Source of the DNA: Rhodospirillum centenum SW
Lineage (GTDB): Bacteria > Pseudomonadota > Alphaproteobacteria > Azospirillales > Azospirillaceae
Reading direction: 5' to 3'
Length of the DNA stretch: 64,000 nucleotides
Assembly: GCF_000016185.1 (NCBI RefSeq)
Contig: NC_011420.2
Coordinates: 1,880,501-1,944,500, forward strand
Shown piece after piece: positions 14,040-50,576 of this stretch. The notes below the pieces were generated by a model. That model worked only from the letters and a program-made list of their open reading frames with translations, made no database searches and was not told the origin of the DNA. Within the stretch, counting starts at the first letter, position 1, and every line of letters starts with the position of its first letter. The position numbers were made by a program, and so were the translations under genes.

Positions 14040-14456
14040 TCAGGCGACGTTGCGCCGGACCATCTCGTCCAGGCGGGCCACCCGGACATAGAGCCCGTGG
14101 CTGCGGTCCAGCAGCGAGCGCAGGCCGCCGGGCAGCAGCTCGCTCTCCGGGCCGGACGGTTCCGAACAGATATGGCCGCCGGACAGGGCGTATTCGTCGG
14201 ACGCCGCCTGTTCCTGCGTCATCTCCCCCGCATGCACGGCCTTCTGCGCCAGAAGCCATGCCATCACCTGGGTCAGCCGGGTGGTGACGCGCATCGCCTC
14301 GTAGCTGGCCTGAAGCCGGAGGTGCGGCGGCAGCTTCGCCTGGTCCGCCGCCTCATGATGGGCGACATAGTTCCGCGCCTCCAGGAGCAGAGCCATCGTC
14401 TCGTCATAGGTGCGGTTGAAGAACGCGGTCGGGCCACCCACACTCGATCCTTTCAC
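14040..14456 (-). CDS. rcdA: RcdA-like protein (DUF1465), CtrA-degradation adaptor family
   Basis: The 138-residue protein begins with GPTAFFNRTYDETMALLLEA and contains EAMRVTTRLTQVMAWLLAQKA followed by GEMT, a pattern I recognise from the DUF1465/RcdA family. In Caulobacter RcdA is an adaptor that helps ClpXP degrade the cell-cycle regulator CtrA. The all-helical character fits the three-helix fold of that family. The C-terminus is longer and more charged than the core. The function in this organism is an inference from family. A perfect 14-bp palindrome lies 22 bases upstream of the start. Confidence 0.75.
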   Translation of the reverse strand: MKGSSVGGPTAFFNRTYDETMALLLEARNYVAHHEAADQAKLPPHLRLQASYEAMRVTTRLTQVMAWLLAQKAVHAGEMTQEQAASDEYALSGGHICSEPSGPESELLPGGLRSLLDRSHGLYVRVARLDEMVRRNVA

Positions 14457-14477
14457 CGGGACAGCCCCGGCCTCCGG

Positions 14478-14491
14478 AAACTCTAGAGTTT
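14478..14491. promoter_or_regulatory. Perfect AT-rich palindrome upstream of rcdA
   Basis: AAACTCTAGAGTTT is a perfect 14-bp palindrome in an otherwise GC-rich region, 22-35 bases before the rcdA start codon. Its position suits an operator. No known binding consensus is matched with confidence. Confidence 0.4.
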
Positions 14492-14599
14492 AAACGCTGA
14501 AACTTGCAACCGTTCCGGAGCAGACGCCGGGGGTGATGCAGGCGACAGGAGCAACCGGAAGGCGTCGGCCCACACCTGGATACCGTCGCCATCCCCCCT

Positions 14600-14628
14600 C
14601 TTGACGCCGTCGGAGCGCCTTCCCATCT
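14600..14628 (+). promoter_or_regulatory. Candidate sigma-32 heat-shock promoter
   Basis: CTTGACG at 14600-14606 and CCCATCT at 14622-14628 with 15 bases between them resemble the heat-shock sigma consensus (CTTGAAA, then CCCCATNT). It lies about 170 bases before the hsp20 start, which would give a long 5' leader. Confidence 0.5.
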
Positions 14629-14639
14629 CGAAGAGCGTC

Positions 14640-14795
14640 GGCGGACGCCCGCCAGGGGTTCCCGACAGAGACCTGAAAGTACTGGCAGAAAGTACTGACA
14701 GAAGTGTCGGTACGCACTGTCACCGACGCACCCCGGAAGGATCGCCCGCAGGCGGGGACCTTCCATCGGGGTATCGCTCACGAAGGAGGATATCC
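14640..14795 (+). promoter_or_regulatory. ROSE-like RNA thermometer in the hsp20 leader
   Basis: The leader can fold into successive hairpins. A tandem 13-base repeat lies at 14675-14700. A 9-bp hairpin with a GAAG loop lies at 14692-14713. GGAAGG at 14735-14740 pairs with CCTTCC at 14759-14764. In the last hairpin UCGCU at 14774-14778 faces the ribosome site AGGA at 14784-14787 with one unpaired G, as in the UYGCU-AGGA pairing of ROSE elements, and GGGUA at 14769-14773 pairs with UAUCC at 14791-14795. ROSE elements block translation of small heat-shock genes at low temperature and melt on warming. Identification rests on this pairing pattern and gene context. Confidence 0.65.
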
Positions 14796-15254
14796 ATGCG
14801 TAGCTACGACCTGTCGCCGCTGTTCCGTTCCACCGTCGGTTTCGACCGCCTGACCCGCCTCATGGAGTCGGCCCTGAACACCGACGAGGCCAGTACCGGC
14901 TACCCGCCCTACAACATCGAGAAGCTGGACGACGACCATTACCGGATCACCATGGCCGTGGCGGGCTTCCGCCCCGAGGATCTGGAGATCACGGCGCATC
15001 CGAACCTGCTGGTCATCCAGGGCAAGGCCATCAAGGAAGGGGACGCGGGGAACTATCTCTACCGCGGCATCGCCGGCCGGGCCTTCGAGCGCCGCTTCCA
15101 GCTTGCCGACCACATCCGCGTCTCCGACGCGACCCTGGAGCACGGCCTGCTGAGCGTGTCGCTGGTCCGCGAGGTGCCCGAGGCCATGAAGCCCCGCACC
15201 GTCCAGATCACCACCGCCACCCGCCCGGCGACCCTGGAAGCCCGCGCGGCCTGA
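14796..15254 (+). CDS. Small heat-shock protein, Hsp20/IbpA family
   Basis: The 152-residue protein begins MRSYDLSPLFRSTVGFDRL, the usual N-terminus of class A rhizobial and IbpA-type small heat-shock proteins. The alpha-crystallin domain covers about residues 35-130 and includes YRITMAVAGFRPEDLEI and the LEHGLLSVSLVREVPE strand region. It binds unfolding proteins without ATP. The start follows a perfect AAGGAGG site. The leader carries a ROSE-like thermometer and a candidate heat-shock promoter, so double temperature control is likely. A terminator follows. Confidence 0.95.
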   Translation: MRSYDLSPLFRSTVGFDRLTRLMESALNTDEASTGYPPYNIEKLDDDHYRITMAVAGFRPEDLEITAHPNLLVIQGKAIKEGDAGNYLYRGIAGRAFERRFQLADHIRVSDATLEHGLLSVSLVREVPEAMKPRTVQITTATRPATLEARAA

Positions 15255-15576: not shown

Positions 15577-16428
15577 TTACATCCCCTGCCGGTGAACCGC
15601 CGGGTGCAGCGACGCCGCCCGCGGCGGTGCCAGTCCCCGCCGCGGATGTGCCCCGTCGGGGCTGAGCCCGGCATGCACCGCATCGGCCAGACGCAGCAGT
15701 TCGCCCCGGCCCAGGTCGCCGACCAGCGCATAGCCGAGATCCCCGTCCAGCCAGGTGAACAGCGTCCGGCTGCCCTGACGCATGTAGCTGAAGGTGCCCT
15801 CGGTGGCCTCCGCGGGCGGTCCGACGATCAGGCTGACATGACGGGCGCCCGCGGCCTCCCGGTAGATGAACTGCAACCCCGCCCCGTCGCCCAGGGGAAC
15901 GGGACGACGCCGGTCCAGATGCCAGCCCAGCGGCGACAGGTCGGGGGGCCTTACCCCCGCCACCAGCCCCGTCGCCGCCGGAATCGCCCCGCCGGCACCG
16001 GCGACCGTCCGGGCGTGCGCCTCCAGGGCGGACCGGGAGAAACGGTAGAAGTCCGCCCCGCCCGGTCCGGCCCGCCAGCCCGGCAGAACCGCCACCGCCA
16101 GCAGGGCCGCGGCACACAGAGCACCGGCCAGGACCACCCGCCCCCCGCGGCGGAACGGCGGCGGCTGGCGTACCTGCCGCGCCAGACCTGACGCCTCGCG
16201 CCGCCAGGCCTCGAACGCCGCCCGGGGGACGGGTCCCGCCCCCTCCCCCGCGCCGAACAGCACCCGCAGACCCTCGTTCTGGGCCTGCCAGGCGGCGACG
16301 CGGGCTGCCGCCGCAGGATTGGCGGCAAGATAGGCCAGCACGACCGCCCGGCGGGCCGGCGGCAGGGCACCGTCCACCAGTTCGTGCAGGTCCTCCTCCA
16401 CCACCACCGGCGGCCGCCGCCCGATCAT
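15577..16428 (-). CDS. Anti-sigma factor, single-pass membrane protein
   Basis: The 283-residue protein has a cytoplasmic N-terminal region (residues 1-95) beginning VVVEEDLHELVDGALPPARR, the typical opening of RsiW/PrtR-like anti-sigma factors, then one membrane segment at about 98-117 and a periplasmic domain. No zinc-binding HxxxCxxC motif is seen, so it is not of the ZAS type. It overlaps the ECF sigma gene by 4 bases, which supports a sigma/anti-sigma pair. The signal it senses through the periplasmic part is unknown. Confidence 0.85.
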   Translation of the reverse strand: MIGRRPPVVVEEDLHELVDGALPPARRAVVLAYLAANPAAAARVAAWQAQNEGLRVLFGAGEGAGPVPRAAFEAWRREASGLARQVRQPPPFRRGGRVVLAGALCAAALLAVAVLPGWRAGPGGADFYRFSRSALEAHARTVAGAGGAIPAATGLVAGVRPPDLSPLGWHLDRRRPVPLGDGAGLQFIYREAAGARHVSLIVGPPAEATEGTFSYMRQGSRTLFTWLDGDLGYALVGDLGRGELLRLADAVHAGLSPDGAHPRRGLAPPRAASLHPAVHRQGM

Positions 16429-16943
16429 TTCACCCTCCGTAGCCGCGGGGCCTCGCCGGCCAGATGCTGACGCAGCGCCTCCCGCGCCCGGGACAGACGG
16501 GACATGACAGTGCCGACCGGAATGCCCAGCACGGTTGCCACCTCCTCGTACCGCAGCCCCTCCAGCGCCACCAGCAGCAGCACCTGCCGCTGCTCCGGCG
16601 GCAGCAGGGCCAGACCGCGGGCCATGTCGCGCAGTTCCATGTGGTCGTCCTGACCGGCAGGGGTGGCGACATGCAGGGCCGCGTCCCCGACGGGGGTGAC
16701 GGTGGGGGCCGTCACCTTGCGCCGGACATGGTTGGCATGGAGGTTGTGCAGGATGGTGAAGAGCCAGGCCCGCAGATTGGTGCCCGGCTGGAACCTGTCG
16801 GACCGGGACAGGGCCCGCGCCAGCGCATCCTGGACCAGATCGTCGGCATCCGTCCGGTCACGCAGGAGAGCCCGGGCATACCGGCGCAACGGCCCGATAT
16901 GCTGCTCGATCTCCGCACCGAATTCGGTCACGCCGCCCCCCAT
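16425..16943 (-). CDS. ECF-family RNA polymerase sigma factor
   Basis: The 172-residue protein has sigma region 2 (DADDLVQDALARAL and NLRAWLFTILHNLHANHVRR) and region 4 (LPPEQRQVLLLVALEGLRYEEVATVLGI, then GTVMSRLSRAREALR). It lacks regions 1 and 3, as in all ECF sigmas. It directs RNA polymerase to a small regulon under control of the membrane anti-sigma factor encoded downstream. I chose the ATG at 16943, which lies inside a 15-bp inverted repeat; a GTG four codons later is an alternative start. The terminator of prpE ends only about 50 bases upstream. Confidence 0.93.
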   Translation of the reverse strand: MGGGVTEFGAEIEQHIGPLRRYARALLRDRTDADDLVQDALARALSRSDRFQPGTNLRAWLFTILHNLHANHVRRKVTAPTVTPVGDAALHVATPAGQDDHMELRDMARGLALLPPEQRQVLLLVALEGLRYEEVATVLGIPVGTVMSRLSRAREALRQHLAGEAPRLRRVK

Positions 16944-16976
16944 CGCTGTTGCCTGCGAGGACAACAGCGATGGGGG
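16937..16976 (-). promoter_or_regulatory. Perfect 15-bp inverted repeat over the ECF sigma start codon
   Basis: CCCCCATCGCTGTTG at 16937-16951 is repeated as its exact complement at 16962-16976, with 10 bases between. In the minus-strand RNA the AUG lies in the second arm and the weak AGG ribosome site lies in the loop. The structure could hide the start codon, or the DNA could be an operator for a dimeric regulator. Confidence 0.6.
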
Positions 16977-16993
16977 ACCGGGAGACACGCACG

Positions 16994-17029
16994 AAAAAGA
17001 GGCCCGGGCCGATATTCCCGGCCCGGGCC
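16994..17029 (-). terminator. Rho-independent terminator of prpE
   Basis: Arms GGCCCGGGCCG at 17001-17011 and its complement at 17019-17029 have a 7-base loop, and in the minus direction the stem is followed by TCTTTTT. Confidence 0.85.
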
Positions 17030-17062
17030 TTCGCAGATCGTTCGGCGAGGACGCCCGCCGGG

Positions 17063-18973
17063 TCAGTCCGCGGGCTTGTCCACGGCGTAGCCGATGGTCC
17101 GCAGGGCGTCCCCGATCTCCTCCAGGATCATCGGGTCGTCGATCGTGGCCGGCATCTTCCAGGGTTCCGCATCGGCGATCTTCTGCATGGTGCCGCGCAG
17201 GATCTTGCCCGAACGGGTCTTCGGCAGGCGGTCCACGACGATGGCCTGCTTGAAGCTGGCGACCGGGCCGATCTCGTCGCGCACCTTGGCGACGATCTCG
17301 CGCACGATCACCTCCGTCGGGCGGGTGACGCCGGCCTTCAGCACGACGAAGCCCAGCGGCACCTGGCCCTTCAACTGGTCCGCCACGCCGATGACGGCGC
17401 ATTCCGCCACGTCGGGGTGGCCGGCCAGCACCTCCTCCATACCACCGGTGGAGAGCCGGTGGCCCGCCACATTGATGATGTCGTCGGTGCGGGCCATCAC
17501 ATAGACATAGCCGTCCGCATCGACGAAGCCGGCGTCCGCCGTCTGGTAGTAGCCGGAGAACTCCGACAGGTAGCTCTTGCGGAAGCGGTCCTCGGCGTTC
17601 CAGAGGGTCGCCAGCGTGCCCGGCGGCAGCGGCAGCTTGCAGACGATGGCGCCGATGTCGCCGCGCTTCACCTCATGCCCGTCCGCGCCCAGGATGCGGA
17701 CGTCCCAGCCCGGCAGCGGCTTGCAGGTGCTGCCGTACTTGACCGGGAAGAGACCCAGGCCCAGCGGGTTGCCGGCGATCGGCCAGCCCGTCTCCGTCTG
17801 CCACCAGTGGTCGATGACGGGGACCTTCAGATGGTCCTCGGCCCAGTGCAGCGTGTCGGGGTCGCTGCGCTCACCCGCCAGGAACAGGGCGCGCAGGCAG
17901 GAGACATCGTAGTTCTTCAGCAGCAGTGCGTTCGGGTCGTCGCGCTTGATGGCGCGGAACGCGGTGGGCGCCGTGAACAGCGTCTGGATGCGGTACTCGC
18001 TGATCATGCGCCAGAAGGCGCCGGCGTCGGGCGTGCCGACCGGCTTGCCCTCGTAGATCACCGTCGTGCAGCCGTGCAGCAGCGGCGCATAGACGATGTA
18101 GCTGTGGCCGACCACCCAGCCCACGTCCGAAGCGGCCCAGAACACCTCGCCCGGCTTCACGCCGTAGAAGTGCTCCATGGTCCACTTCAGCGCCACGGCA
18201 TGACCGCCGTTGTCGCGCACGACGCCCTTGGGCTGGCCCGTCGTGCCCGAGGTGTAGAGGATGTAGAGCGGGTCGGTGGCGGCGACCGGCACGCAGTCGG
18301 CCGGGGTCGTCGCGGCGACGGCGGCCTCCCAGTCGTGGTCGCGGCCGTCGATCAGGGACGCCTGCTCCTGCGGGCGTTGCAGAATCAGGCAGGATTCGGG
18401 CTTGTGGGTCGCCTGCTCGATGGCGCTGTCGAGCATCGGCTTGTACTTCACCACCCGGCCCGGCTCGATGCCGCAGGAGGCGGAGACGATCACCTTGGGC
18501 TGGGCATCGTTGATGCGGGTCGCCAGCTCGTGCGGGGCGAAACCGCCGAAGACGACGGAGTGGACCGCCCCCAGCCGGGCGCAGGCCAGCATGGCGACCA
18601 GCGCCTCCGGCACCATCGGCATGTAGACCAGGACACGGTCGCCCTTGACCACACCGCGGTCGCGCAGCGCGCCGGCGAACAGCGCCACCTGGTCACGGAA
18701 GTCGCGGTAGGTCAGGATGCGCTTCGTGCCGGTGACAGGGCTGTCGTAGATGATGGCCGGCTGGTCGGCCCGGCCGCCCTCGACATGGCGGTCGATGGCG
18801 TTCCAGCAGGTGTTCAGCTCGCCGCCGGCGAACCAGCGGTAGAGCGGGGCGCGGCTGTCGTCCAGCACGACGTCCCACGGCCTGATCCAGTCGATGTCCT
18901 TGGCGGCTTCTCCCCAGAAGCCAGCAGGATCGGCCAGCGAGCGTTGGTGAAGCTCCTCATAGCGGGCCGGCAT
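17063..18973 (-). CDS. prpE: Propionyl-CoA synthetase (propionate--CoA ligase)
   Basis: The 636-residue enzyme activates propionate (and to a lesser degree acetate) to its CoA thioester via the acyl-adenylate. It has the AMP-binding motif YTSGTTGQPKG, the WWQTETGWPI motif and the C-terminal catalytic-lysine motif RSGKILRGT, whose lysine is acetylated in relatives. The opening YEELHQRSLADPAGFWGEAA and the whole pattern match PrpE rather than Acs. A GAGGAGG site 5 bases before the ATG supports the start. No methylcitrate-cycle genes are adjacent. It ends in a strong terminator. Confidence 0.92.
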   Translation of the reverse strand: MPARYEELHQRSLADPAGFWGEAAKDIDWIRPWDVVLDDSRAPLYRWFAGGELNTCWNAIDRHVEGGRADQPAIIYDSPVTGTKRILTYRDFRDQVALFAGALRDRGVVKGDRVLVYMPMVPEALVAMLACARLGAVHSVVFGGFAPHELATRINDAQPKVIVSASCGIEPGRVVKYKPMLDSAIEQATHKPESCLILQRPQEQASLIDGRDHDWEAAVAATTPADCVPVAATDPLYILYTSGTTGQPKGVVRDNGGHAVALKWTMEHFYGVKPGEVFWAASDVGWVVGHSYIVYAPLLHGCTTVIYEGKPVGTPDAGAFWRMISEYRIQTLFTAPTAFRAIKRDDPNALLLKNYDVSCLRALFLAGERSDPDTLHWAEDHLKVPVIDHWWQTETGWPIAGNPLGLGLFPVKYGSTCKPLPGWDVRILGADGHEVKRGDIGAIVCKLPLPPGTLATLWNAEDRFRKSYLSEFSGYYQTADAGFVDADGYVYVMARTDDIINVAGHRLSTGGMEEVLAGHPDVAECAVIGVADQLKGQVPLGFVVLKAGVTRPTEVIVREIVAKVRDEIGPVASFKQAIVVDRLPKTRSGKILRGTMQKIADAEPWKMPATIDDPMILEEIGDALRTIGYAVDKPAD

Positions 18974-19160
18974 TGATGCCTCCTCAGAATTTCTCCGCCG
19001 CACGCAGATTCCGCACGCACGGCGTGTTGGCTCTCGCTTGTCGCCAAGCGCAATTAGGGCGTGTCGACTCCGCCATGACAATGGGGAAAAGGCAAAGCCC
19101 TGCACCTGACCGGGCGACCCCGGACGCCCGCGACCCTTCCGGTCCGGCGACCGCGACGCC

Positions 19161-19174
19161 ATGACATAGGTCAT
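19161..19174. promoter_or_regulatory. Small inverted repeat in the prpE upstream region
   Basis: ATGAC and GTCAT flank a 4-base spacer in the 276-base gap between prpE and the next plus-strand gene. It could be an operator for either gene. No regulator can be assigned. Confidence 0.3.
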
Positions 19175-19249
19175 ATCAGCGCTGGCTGTTGAAGCATTTT
19201 GCTTCCCGCGGCGATGCACCGCGGTTTAGAAGTGGGCCCCCGGCGCCAT

Positions 19250-41666: not shown

Positions 41667-43061
<1,395 letters not shown>

Positions 43062-43310
43062 TGGCCAGATCCTCCGGAAGGTCGAACGACGCTCCGCGTT
43101 GTAGCCCCACCGCCGCCGTCGGGCAATGGTGCCGGCCGGAGCGAAGGGACAGGTGACCGCGCGGACGGCAGGGCGACACCGCCACGGGAACAAACGCCGC
43201 CGCCGGCTGTCGTCATCCCGCGGGTGCCGGCACATCCGCCGCGGCCCCGTCGCCGCGGCGCTCCCCGGGGAGGAGGACAGCCGGTACCCCCGGAGAAGGC
43301 GGGGGTGGGG

Positions 43311-43790
43311 ATGGAAGCCGGACGGCGGGGACTCCGGAAGCGGAAGGCGGTGGCGGGCCGGGCGGCCGCGCTGGCGGTGGTCGTCGTGTCCTGGGCCATG
43401 CCGGCCGCGGCAGGCGGAGGCGGCGGCCGGGAACCCGCCGCGGAAATACCGGCCGTGGTCGCCGGCCGGATCACAGAGATGCCGGCCGTAACCCGGTCGC
43501 GCCTGCTGGTGCTGCCCCCGACAGCCGGGCCGGCGCTGGCCGAGCCGGCCCTGCGCCTGGACCGCGCCCCCGACCGGCCGCGCACCGCCCCGGTGGACGC
43601 CCCCTTCTCCGGACACGGCTTCGCCGATGTCGGCAGCGTGCGGATGGGCATGGGCTGGGCCTTCGAGGGCGACGCCCTGTCCCTGGACCTGACGCCGGAG
43701 GCGGCCCGCTACCGCCTGCGCAGCCGGATCGAGCTGGACACCGGCGACGTGGTGGACCGGGTGATGCTGGGCGTCGTCATGCCGTTCTGA
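43311..43790 (+). CDS. Predicted exported protein of unknown function
   Basis: The 159-residue product has a signal peptide (basic RRGLRKRK, hydrophobic core at about 20-32, ending in a Gly-rich stretch). The rest is Pro/Ala-rich in the middle, then beta-strand rich ([20 protein letters not shown]), and it ends with an aromatic residue (VVMPF). No domain is recognised; the strand content and C-terminal Phe would be compatible with an outer-membrane protein or a small exported protein. Only a weak ribosome site is seen. It is divergent from fumC. Confidence 0.5.
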
Positions 43791-48533: not shown

Positions 48534-50576
48534 ATGAATGACGGCATGAGGTCAGGGCCGCGCGTCGCGGCCCTGGTCGGACCCTATCTCAGCGGCAAGA
48601 CGACGCTGCTGGAGAGCCTTCTCGCGGCCACCGGCGCCGTCGCGCGCAAGGGCAGCACGACCGAGGGCAGCAGCCTGGGCGATGCCTCGCCCGAGGCCCG
48701 CGCGCGGCACATGACCATCGACATGAATCTGGCCGCCGCCGAGTTCCTGGGCGAGCGCTGGCATTTCCTGGACTGCCCCGGCTCGATCGAGCTGGCGGCC
48801 GAGGCGCAGCGGGCGCTGTGCGTGGCCGACGTGGCGGTCGTCGTCTGCGAACCCGACCCGGACAAGGCGGCGGCGCTGGCGCCGCTGTTCAGGTTCCTGG
48901 ACGATCTTGCCATCCCGCACATGGTCTTCATCAACAAGATGGACCAGCTCGCCGGGGCGGACCTGCGCGTGCGCGACCTGATGCAGGCGCTGCAGGGCGC
49001 CTCGCAGCGGCCGCTGGTGCTGCGGCAGGTCCCCATCCGCGACGGGCAGGAGGTCACCGGCTACGTCGATCTGGTCAGCGAGCGCGCCTACCGCTGGCGC
49101 CCCGGCCAGGCGTCGGACCTGGTGCCGCTGCCCGACACCGTGCGCGAGCGCGAGCAGGATGCCCGGCAGACCATGCTGGAGTCGCTGGCCGACTTCGACG
49201 ACACCCTGATGGAGCAGCTTCTGGAGGACATGGCGCCCGAGCGCGGCGAGGTCTACCGGCAACTCTCGCAGGATCTGGCGCGCGACCTGATCGTGCCCGT
49301 CTTCCTGGGCTGCGCCGACCGCGACCACGGTGTCCGCCGGCTGCTGAAGGCGCTGCGCCACGAGACGCCGGACAGCACGCAGAGCGCCGCCCGCCTGGGG
49401 ATCCCCGAGGGCCAGACGGTCGTGCAGGTGTTCAAGACCTTCCACGCCAGCCATGCCGGCAAGCTGTCCATCGCCCGCGTCTGGCGCGGCACGGTCGGCG
49501 ACGGGGCCGTTCTGTCCGGCGACAAGGCCAGCGGCCTGTTCGACTTCGTCGGCCTTGCCGCCACCAAGCGCGGCCCCGCCGCCCAGGGCGAGGTGGTCGC
49601 CATCGGCAAGCTGGAGCATGCGCGCAGCGGCGACGTGCTGTCCGACGCCGGACCGGCCGTGCGCGCGACCTTCTGGCCGGAGCCGTCGGTGCCGGTCCAT
49701 GCCGTCGCCATCGCCGCCGAGCAGAAGACCGACGAGGTCAAGCTGACCGCCGCCATCCAGAAGCTGATCGACGAGGACGCAAGCCTGTGCTTCCAGCACG
49801 GCGGCGACACGGGCGAGCTGATCCTGTCCGGCCAGGGCGCGGTGCATCTGGCCATCGCCATCGACCGGCTGCGCAGCCGCTACAACGTGGCCGTCCGCTC
49901 CCACCCGCCGGCGGTGCCGTACCGCGAGACGATCCGGAAACCGACCGAGCAGCACGCCCGCTTCAAGCGCCAGACCGGCGGCCACGGCCAGTTCGCCGAC
50001 GTGCATGTGGAGGTGCGGCCGCTGGCCCGCGGCGAGGGCTTCCGCTTCGAGGACAGGATCGTCGGCGGCGTCATCCCGCGCACCTACATCCCCGCCGTGG
50101 AGGAAGGGGCGAAGGAGGCGCTGGCCCTGGGGCCGCTGGGCTTCCCCGTCGTTGACGTGGCCATGACCCTGACCAACGGCCAGTACCATGCCGTGGACAG
50201 CAGCGAACAGGCCTTCAAGACCGCCGGCCGCATGGCCATGCAGGAGGCCCTGCCGAAGTGCGAGCCGGTGCTGCTGGAACCGATCCTGCTGGTCACCCTG
50301 TCGGTGCCGTCGGAGTTCACGCCCAAGGTGCAGCGCATGGTCAGCCAGCGCCGCGGCCAGATCCTGGGCTTCGACGCCCGGCCCGGCTGGCCCGGCTGGG
50401 ACGAGACCAAGGCCTACATCCCGCAGGCCGACATGGCCGACCTGATCGTGGAGATGCGGTCCCTGAGCCAGGGGCTCGGCACCTACACGGCCGAGCTGGC
50501 GCATCTGGCCGAGCTGAACGGCAAGCTGGCCGACCGCGTGATCGAAAGCCGCGCCGCCGCCATCGCGGCCCAGTAG
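48534..50576 (+). CDS. Elongation factor G-like GTPase lacking the catalytic histidine
   Basis: The 680-residue protein has EF-G domain order: GTPase domain (P-loop GPYLSGKT at 16-23, NKMD at 134-137), domain II, III, IV and V. In EF-G the switch II is DTPGH, whose His is needed for GTP hydrolysis; here it is D80-C-P-G-S84. The switch I consensus RGITI reads HMTID. It is a paralogue of canonical EF-G (not in this window), and the class is known in other alphaproteobacteria as an EF-G-like protein of unknown role. A GGAGG site 6 bases before the ATG supports the start. A hairpin terminator follows. Confidence 0.88.
   Translation: MNDGMRSGPRVAALVGPYLSGKTTLLESLLAATGAVARKGSTTEGSSLGDASPEARARHMTIDMNLAAAEFLGERWHFLDCPGSIELAAEAQRALCVADVAVVVCEPDPDKAAALAPLFRFLDDLAIPHMVFINKMDQLAGADLRVRDLMQALQGASQRPLVLRQVPIRDGQEVTGYVDLVSERAYRWRPGQASDLVPLPDTVREREQDARQTMLESLADFDDTLMEQLLEDMAPERGEVYRQLSQDLARDLIVPVFLGCADRDHGVRRLLKALRHETPDSTQSAARLGIPEGQTVVQVFKTFHASHAGKLSIARVWRGTVGDGAVLSGDKASGLFDFVGLAATKRGPAAQGEVVAIGKLEHARSGDVLSDAGPAVRATFWPEPSVPVHAVAIAAEQKTDEVKLTAAIQKLIDEDASLCFQHGGDTGELILSGQGAVHLAIAIDRLRSRYNVAVRSHPPAVPYRETIRKPTEQHARFKRQTGGHGQFADVHVEVRPLARGEGFRFEDRIVGGVIPRTYIPAVEEGAKEALALGPLGFPVVDVAMTLTNGQYHAVDSSEQAFKTAGRMAMQEALPKCEPVLLEPILLVTLSVPSEFTPKVQRMVSQRRGQILGFDARPGWPGWDETKAYIPQADMADLIVEMRSLSQGLGTYTAELAHLAELNGKLADRVIESRAAAIAAQ

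Follow-up and report, generated by a model that had tools for sequence, protein, structure and literature searches.

A hairpin in the leader of an ECF sigma factor gene of Rhodospirillum centenum and its possible role as an insulator against prpE read-through

What might a perfect inverted repeat do that is squeezed between the terminator of a metabolic gene and the beginning of a gene for an ECF sigma factor? Such a repeat is found in Rhodospirillum centenum downstream of a prpE-type gene, and the original prediction, which placed it over the start codon of the sigma gene, offered an autoregulatory operator, a translational switch or a true start at a downstream GTG as possible answers. Coordinates refer to the window, i.e. 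the whole stretch of 64,000 nt that was analysed, and the features are given in the order of transcription.

17063..19219, minus strand: frame of a prpE-type propionate--CoA ligase, immediately upstream of the sigma gene (best NCBIfam match, below the curated cut-off)
16995..17030, minus strand: intrinsic-terminator-like hairpin after prpE, 12-bp perfect stem at 17000-17030 and T run at 16995-16999 (repeat and terminator scan)
16962..16976, minus strand: 5' arm of the leader-RNA hairpin, transcribed first (repeat search and folding)
16963..16966, minus strand: TGTT in the 5' arm, a candidate -10 element located 35 nt upstream of the GTG and lacking a matching -35 element (promoter scoring)
16952..16961, minus strand: spacer of 10 nt, which would hold the RNA start deduced from the candidate -10 element (repeat search)
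16937..16951, minus strand: 3' arm, with the rejected ATG and the larger part of the G-rich ribosome site (repeat search and folding)
16941..16943, minus strand: in-frame ATG, the start in the original prediction, not conserved in orthologs
16936..16941, minus strand: six consecutive G at the core of the presumed ribosome-binding site for the GTG (sequence and folding)
16929..16931, minus strand: GTG start supported by orthologs (start-codon conservation)
16425..16931, minus strand: ECF sigma factor gene (168 aa when started at the GTG) with the inferred tag RC1_1842 (profile matches and orthologs)
15577..16428, minus strand: putative anti-sigma factor, 283 aa, its ATG overlapping the sigma stop (ATGA) (ORF, weak NCBIfam match, E = 0.009)

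The genes, the start codon and the hairpin

Pfam and NCBIfam assign the sigma protein to sigma-70/ECF sigma families only. The next ORF, which overlaps the sigma gene by 4 nt, has no Pfam match, an NCBIfam anti-sigma match at the E value given above and a hydrophobic stretch recognizable by eye, and similar frames adjoin the sigma genes of many relatives. As the sigma frame ends in an ATGA that overlaps the anti-sigma start, the two genes are probably translationally coupled and translation of sigma would probably govern both. The genome contains 17 sigma-factor matches over cut-off, which can be aligned in step with the sigma tags quoted in the excerpts of PMC4340629 and PMC4681086, and the class II fumarase (41670-43616) and EF-G (48534-50573) of the window lie as expected for RC1_1865 and RC1_1873 from the excerpts of PMC2890560 and PMC7117780. 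By gene order against these published tags the sigma gene is probably RC1_1842, which, according to the same excerpts, is elevated late in cyst development (PMC4340629) and reduced in germination (PMC7117780).

The position of the start codon determines how the repeat has to be viewed. Start codons, like repeat conservation and folding z-scores, were compared at 39 loci (38 of the family, one outside). GTG or TTG stands exactly at the position of GTG 16931 in 35 of the 38 family genes, among them that of R. centenum, and the remaining three have a TTG 1-5 codons upstream of the aligned position (in L209, L173 and L230 the aligned codon is not a start and the nearest TTG was taken). Twelve of the 38 contain no other ATG, GTG or TTG back to the upstream in-frame stop. 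With starts placed in this way, 50 of the 59 family orthologs begin with TTG and nine with GTG, never with ATG; R. centenum alone has an ATG 12 nt upstream of the start, and all 58 other family orthologs lack it. The ortholog start codons rule out the ATG at 16943 and strongly support GTG 16931-16929 as translation start, i.e. the third of the suggested options was right, and the start codon of the probable RC1_1842 gene is corrected. Since the GTG lies downstream of the repeat, the hairpin is an element of the leader RNA and not, as first thought, one that covers the start codon.

The repeat itself is as originally described, with two perfect 15-mer arms (16937-16951 and 16962-16976, minus strand) around a 10-nt spacer, the ATG (16943-16941) in the second arm, a weak ribosome site, GCAGG, in the spacer and the T run of the prpE terminator at a distance of 18 nt, within the fewer than 20 bases first stated. 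A longer imperfect version extends over 16927-16986 with 84% identity. On the minus, i.e. transcribed, strand the hairpin has a predicted folding energy of -46.9 kcal/mol vs -26.5 +/- 3.1 kcal/mol for 200 shuffles (z = -6.5), none of which folded as well. The predicted helix consists of 18 continuous pairs and ends 5 nt 5' of the GTG, and its 3' arm includes the G-rich ribosome site. Whether 60, 131 or 200 nt of leader are folded, the predicted unpaired probability of the ribosome site (-15 to -4 from the GTG) is 0.00, with about 0.5 for the start codon.

Throughout the 4.36-Mb genome the arm matches exactly at the two hairpin sites only, which rules out a dispersed repeat or mobile element; likewise, with up to three mismatches 135 matches are found vs 107 for the reversed control, so that the arm is not part of a dispersed repeat. 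A survey of 464 kb, made up of the window and twenty further 20-kb samples from this genome, yielded 28 perfect inverted repeats with arms of at least 12 bp and loops of 3-20 nt, two of which, including 16937-16976, have arms of at least 15 bp, and a first-order Markov model gave four such repeats in 2 x 464 kb, none longer than 13 bp. The 15-bp perfect repeat exists as described, occurs nowhere else in the genome and greatly exceeds what chance would give. The other repeat with arms of at least 15 bp (L158, 10703-10743) has a 19-bp arm and a 3-nt loop, lacks a T run and is the longest in the 464-kb sample. The 16937-16976 hairpin was also considered as a second intrinsic terminator and rejected as such; the terminator scan reports the prpE hairpin at 17000-17030 only (two overlapping matches).

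Ribosome-site burial and promoter loss among relatives

Gene layout, promoter and ribosome-site accessibility were measured together for 59 family orthologs with about 3 kb of upstream sequence and for one ortholog outside the family, and the upstream sequence retrieved contains prpE at 31 of these 60 loci. The ribosome site of R. centenum, where prpE is 131 nt away, has an unpaired probability of 0.00, and the other two prpE-proximal orthologs reach 0.08 (G032, gap of 83 nt) and 0.09 (G027, gap of 100 nt), with values of 0.19-0.76 for the other 56. The next-larger gaps, 220-304 nt, all go along with an upstream promoter and open sites (0.37-0.69). In G012, which has no upstream promoter and carries prpE 1405 nt away, the site is not buried (0.28). 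In a wider search for compact layouts the order-level sample consisted of the same 82 genomes and a lower completeness limit brought no further ones; a class-wide draw of 385 genomes (E <= 1e-50) gave five genomes, two of them outside the family, and of these G432, which was examined, has no prpE within about 3 kb upstream.

Since the arms of the three buried leaders differ in sequence, the trait that they share is burial of the ribosome site and not the palindrome. A perfect inverted repeat with arms of at least 10 bp and its second arm over the ribosome site occurs in none of the 37 other family orthologs examined, one of which has 9 bp. Hence the expectation that close relatives would conserve the repeat fails for its sequence but holds for the burial in the two relatives with compact layout, and the suggested translational switch finds support from the structure comparison in this form only, i.e. 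as ribosome-site burial. Folding energy, expressed as z against dinucleotide shuffles, does not set G032 (-3.0) and G027 (-2.4) apart because their values overlap those of unburied orthologs, which reach -2.4, and only R. centenum (-5.3) is well clear; what distinguishes G032 and G027 from unburied orthologs is the placement of the helix. Among 327 sampled genes of the R. centenum genome none has an unpaired probability of 0.02 or less, about four (~1%) are at 0.09 or less and 13 reach -38 kcal/mol, in a sample that is based on rough gene calls and took the ATG for the sigma gene, so that its GTG leader is not included. Taken together, burial of the ribosome site is strongly predicted.

The second peculiarity of the locus is its promoter. 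The original prediction saw little room for a normal one, and indeed the promoter that precedes 55 of the 59 family orthologs, GGAATAA-N16/17-[CT]GTT at 100-186 nt upstream of the start (two with a changed first base), is absent from R. centenum, as well as from G032, G027 and G012. These four cluster in the sigma tree (support 92/73, with long branches and a bootstrap that is not settled). Ortholog counts overstate independence because a single genus (g11) supplies the majority of the genes with a distal promoter. A sigma-70 promoter was not found in 16500-17600 either (0.2 in shuffles). The loop of the prpE terminator (17012-17018, minus strand) reads GGAATAT, which is similar to the -35 element of ECF26, and has a CGTG after it, spaced by 20 vs 16-17; as a relic of the distal promoter this pair was rejected, scoring 2.0 vs a 95% shuffle value of 6.5.

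The motif GGAATAA-N14/15-[CT]GTT is found at 5-9 sites in each of eight promoter-keeping genomes (reversed control 0-3) vs 0, 1, 2 and 1 sites in the four promoter-less genomes (controls 1, 0, 2 and 1), with R. centenum having no site at all; these 12 genomes were picked by hand across the genera from the 82 of the family, and the excess in the promoter-bearing G020 is small (5 vs 3). The -35 preference may have changed together with sigma in the promoter-less lineage. In the protein alignment, the four sigma factors without distal promoter (L200, L208, L209 and L210) carry residues that are absent from 40 distinct promoter-bearing others, for example GP at columns 18-19 vs AS (SS in one of the 40) and L at column 161 vs V/I. 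These residues are possibly tied to a changed promoter preference.

A candidate promoter inside the hairpin

The tetranucleotide [CT]GTT starts at -34 to -38 in all four promoter-less orthologs and in none of the 55 others (scanned from -40 to -32). The corresponding Fisher p of 2e-6 is overstated, because the pattern was seen before testing and the four genes are kin; the scan window, too, was chosen after the sites had been seen, and 6/55 promoter-bearing orthologs have GGTT there. In the three buried leaders the 5' arm contains or adjoins the tetranucleotide, and RNA begun at the latter would lack this arm.

According to a -10 matrix built from the 55 promoters, [CT]GTT is the best site in each buried leader, a score matched by 27% of the shuffles for R. 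centenum, 4% for G032 and 0/500 for G027, whereas in G012 it ranks only second. When -35 and -10 elements are scored together, the proximal site is best in G032, G027 and G012, not in R. centenum. By eye the -35 positions read GGCAAC (G032), GTGAAAC (G027), GGCAACC (G012) and GTGTC (R. centenum), the last resembling neither GGAATA nor GGAAC, and none of the four full proximal-promoter scores exceeds the 95% shuffle value. The shuffles for the full scores and for the -10 matrix preserved single-base content only. The sequence points weakly to a promoter inside the hairpin.

RNA synthesis starting about 5-9 nt past TGTT would begin between the arms and give a leader of 22-26 nt. With leaders of this length the predicted accessibility of the ribosome site would reach 0.35-0.44 in R. 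centenum (0.00 in the full leader), 0.35-0.52 in G032 (0.08) and 0.75-0.84 in G027 (0.09), and removal of the 5' arm gives predicted values of 0.25-0.84, depending on the gene and the assumed start. In the shortened leaders the start codon is predicted to go from about 0.5 to 0.19-0.40 in R. centenum and to stay paired (0.00-0.01) in G027 (L208). If all 59 leaders are cut at -26, G027 gains most (0.76), R. centenum ranks third (0.35) and G032 sixth (0.16); one unburied ortholog gains 0.67. Orthologs of genus g7 (L203-L207, also numbered L003-L005, L007 and L008) have a second ECF-like element, GGAACTT-N16/17-GGTT, at about -57 to -32, downstream of the distal promoter and with GGTT at -36 in 5/5.

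Proposed function, alternatives and known systems

The hairpin with its predicted stability, the start codon, the missing distal promoter and the burial in both compact relatives are what sequence and computation show. The explanation that we favour is that the hairpin serves as a translational insulator against prpE read-through that is bypassed by a promoter inside the hairpin, and we give it just under an even chance. In RNA reading through from prpE the G-rich ribosome site would be locked in the 18-bp helix, the hairpin would back up the prpE terminator, should the terminator leak, and sigma, probably together with the coupled anti-sigma factor, would be kept unmade whenever prpE is transcribed. 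Expression would then need RNA without the 5' arm, the likeliest source of which would be a promoter with TGTT (16966-16963) in the 5' arm as its -10 element and RNA starting between the arms. Read-through from prpE, repression by the hairpin in the cell and use of the internal promoter are the three steps that we infer. A terminator that already follows prpE in R. centenum and the missing conservation of the arm sequence speak against an insulator, as do the folding z-scores of the relatives, which are not distinctive, and the start codon, which the shorter leader does not free. We further consider, as an unlikely elaboration, that the lineage lost its distal GGAATA promoter, changed its preference and moved the promoter into the 5' arm, one segment thereby serving as the sigma gene's own -10 element and as mask of the ribosome site.

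Alternatively, the palindrome may be a product of chance or a relic, the 5' arm having been copied recently, in inverted orientation, from the region of the ribosome site and having no selected function, with low expression from read-through. Arms that are perfect and unique, and a sequence absent from the other orthologs examined, are as expected for a recent event, and the closest relative has a purine-rich ribosome site to which the 3' arm, but not most of the 5' arm, can be aligned. On the other hand, the ribosome site is buried by other sequences in two diverged relatives that share the layout, only ~1% of the sampled genes are buried to such a degree, and an intact gene blocked by a perfect 18-bp helix would carry a cost unless something compensated for it, so that we hold this explanation to be somewhat unlikely. 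By an RNase III-type cleavage the duplex in prpE read-through RNA would be cut, the ribosome site freed and sigma made; it could draw on 18 continuous pairs, and a cut near the loop would create a short leader like that from the internal start (accessibility 0.35-0.44). As the stem is near the short end for the enzyme and the stems of the relatives are interrupted, such processing seems rather improbable.

A protein could act on the DNA as a dimeric regulator, with the repeat as operator, or on the RNA as an autogenous repressor binding the hairpin, and both the perfect dyad symmetry immediately before the start and the regulation of the gene during cyst development (excerpts of PMC4340629 and PMC7117780), if the inferred tag RC1_1842 is right, would fit. 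However, the arm has no second exact copy elsewhere in the genome, no such repeat was found in the relatives examined and perfect arms of 15 bp exceed usual operators; we would be surprised if a protein were in control. A small molecule acting through a riboswitch finds no counterpart among Rfam families at gathering score, the best over the hairpin reaching 23.3 bits vs 77.

RNA thermometers occur upstream of rpoH, pairing the ribosome site, i.e. a sigma gene with buried ribosome site is the classical setting for such a device, and the pairing of the sigma-gene ribosome site in the leader is what the present locus has in common with rpoH. By contrast, the hairpin of R. centenum is predicted to be much too stable for melting in the growth range: its site stays closed from 20 to 60 °C (unpaired probability 0.00-0.01), which makes a thermometer, as one form of the suggested translational switch, unlikely. 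That a thermometer or riboswitch opens the ribosome site is the most improbable of the explanations considered.

The closest parallel to an insulator bypassed from within comes from phage T4, where, as described in the excerpts of PMC3014915, long transcripts do not express the lysozyme gene e because a helix encloses its ribosome site. Expression of e comes from late promoters in the 5' strand of the hairpin, whose RNA lacks the 5' part of the helix, and soc, 49 and I-TevI likewise have a ribosome site that is hidden in long transcripts. As far as these excerpts go, the sigma gene resembles gene e in having a predicted ribosome-site helix in RNA arriving from upstream and in that the DNA coding for the 5' strand contains a candidate promoter element, a proximal start at which would drop this strand. 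It differs from gene e in being a chromosomal bacterial sigma gene with a weak putative promoter. A limited open-access literature search, mostly of titles and abstracts, found no description of such a hairpin for an ECF sigma gene.

If the promoter does lie in the arm, the locus would provide a cellular stress-sigma operon with a promoter-selective translation filter such as phage T4 has. A potent regulator would be kept silent in read-through messages by RNA structure and made only from the messages of one promoter. Such a compact noise filter, documented in phage T4, would account for the control of a sigma gene that follows a metabolic gene at a distance of 131 nt and lacks the promoter of its relatives.

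We regard the sigma gene as ECF26-like. In that group (Sinorhizobium meliloti RpoE1, E3, E4 and E6 with the EcfR anti-sigma factors) an anti-sigma gene follows the sigma gene, as the putative one may do in R. centenum, and the distal promoter of 55/59 family orthologs resembles the consensus, -35 GGAATA / -10 GT, that the excerpts of PMC6180224 list for S. meliloti rpoE4 among others. Unlike this type, the R. centenum gene and those of three relatives lack a GGAATA / GT promoter before themselves.

At 14040-15254, past the anti-sigma gene, there are a small heat-shock protein gene on the opposite strand (IbpA/IbpB models) and the frame of an RcdA-like protease adaptor, both with matches below cut-off and both plausible stress-regulon neighbours.
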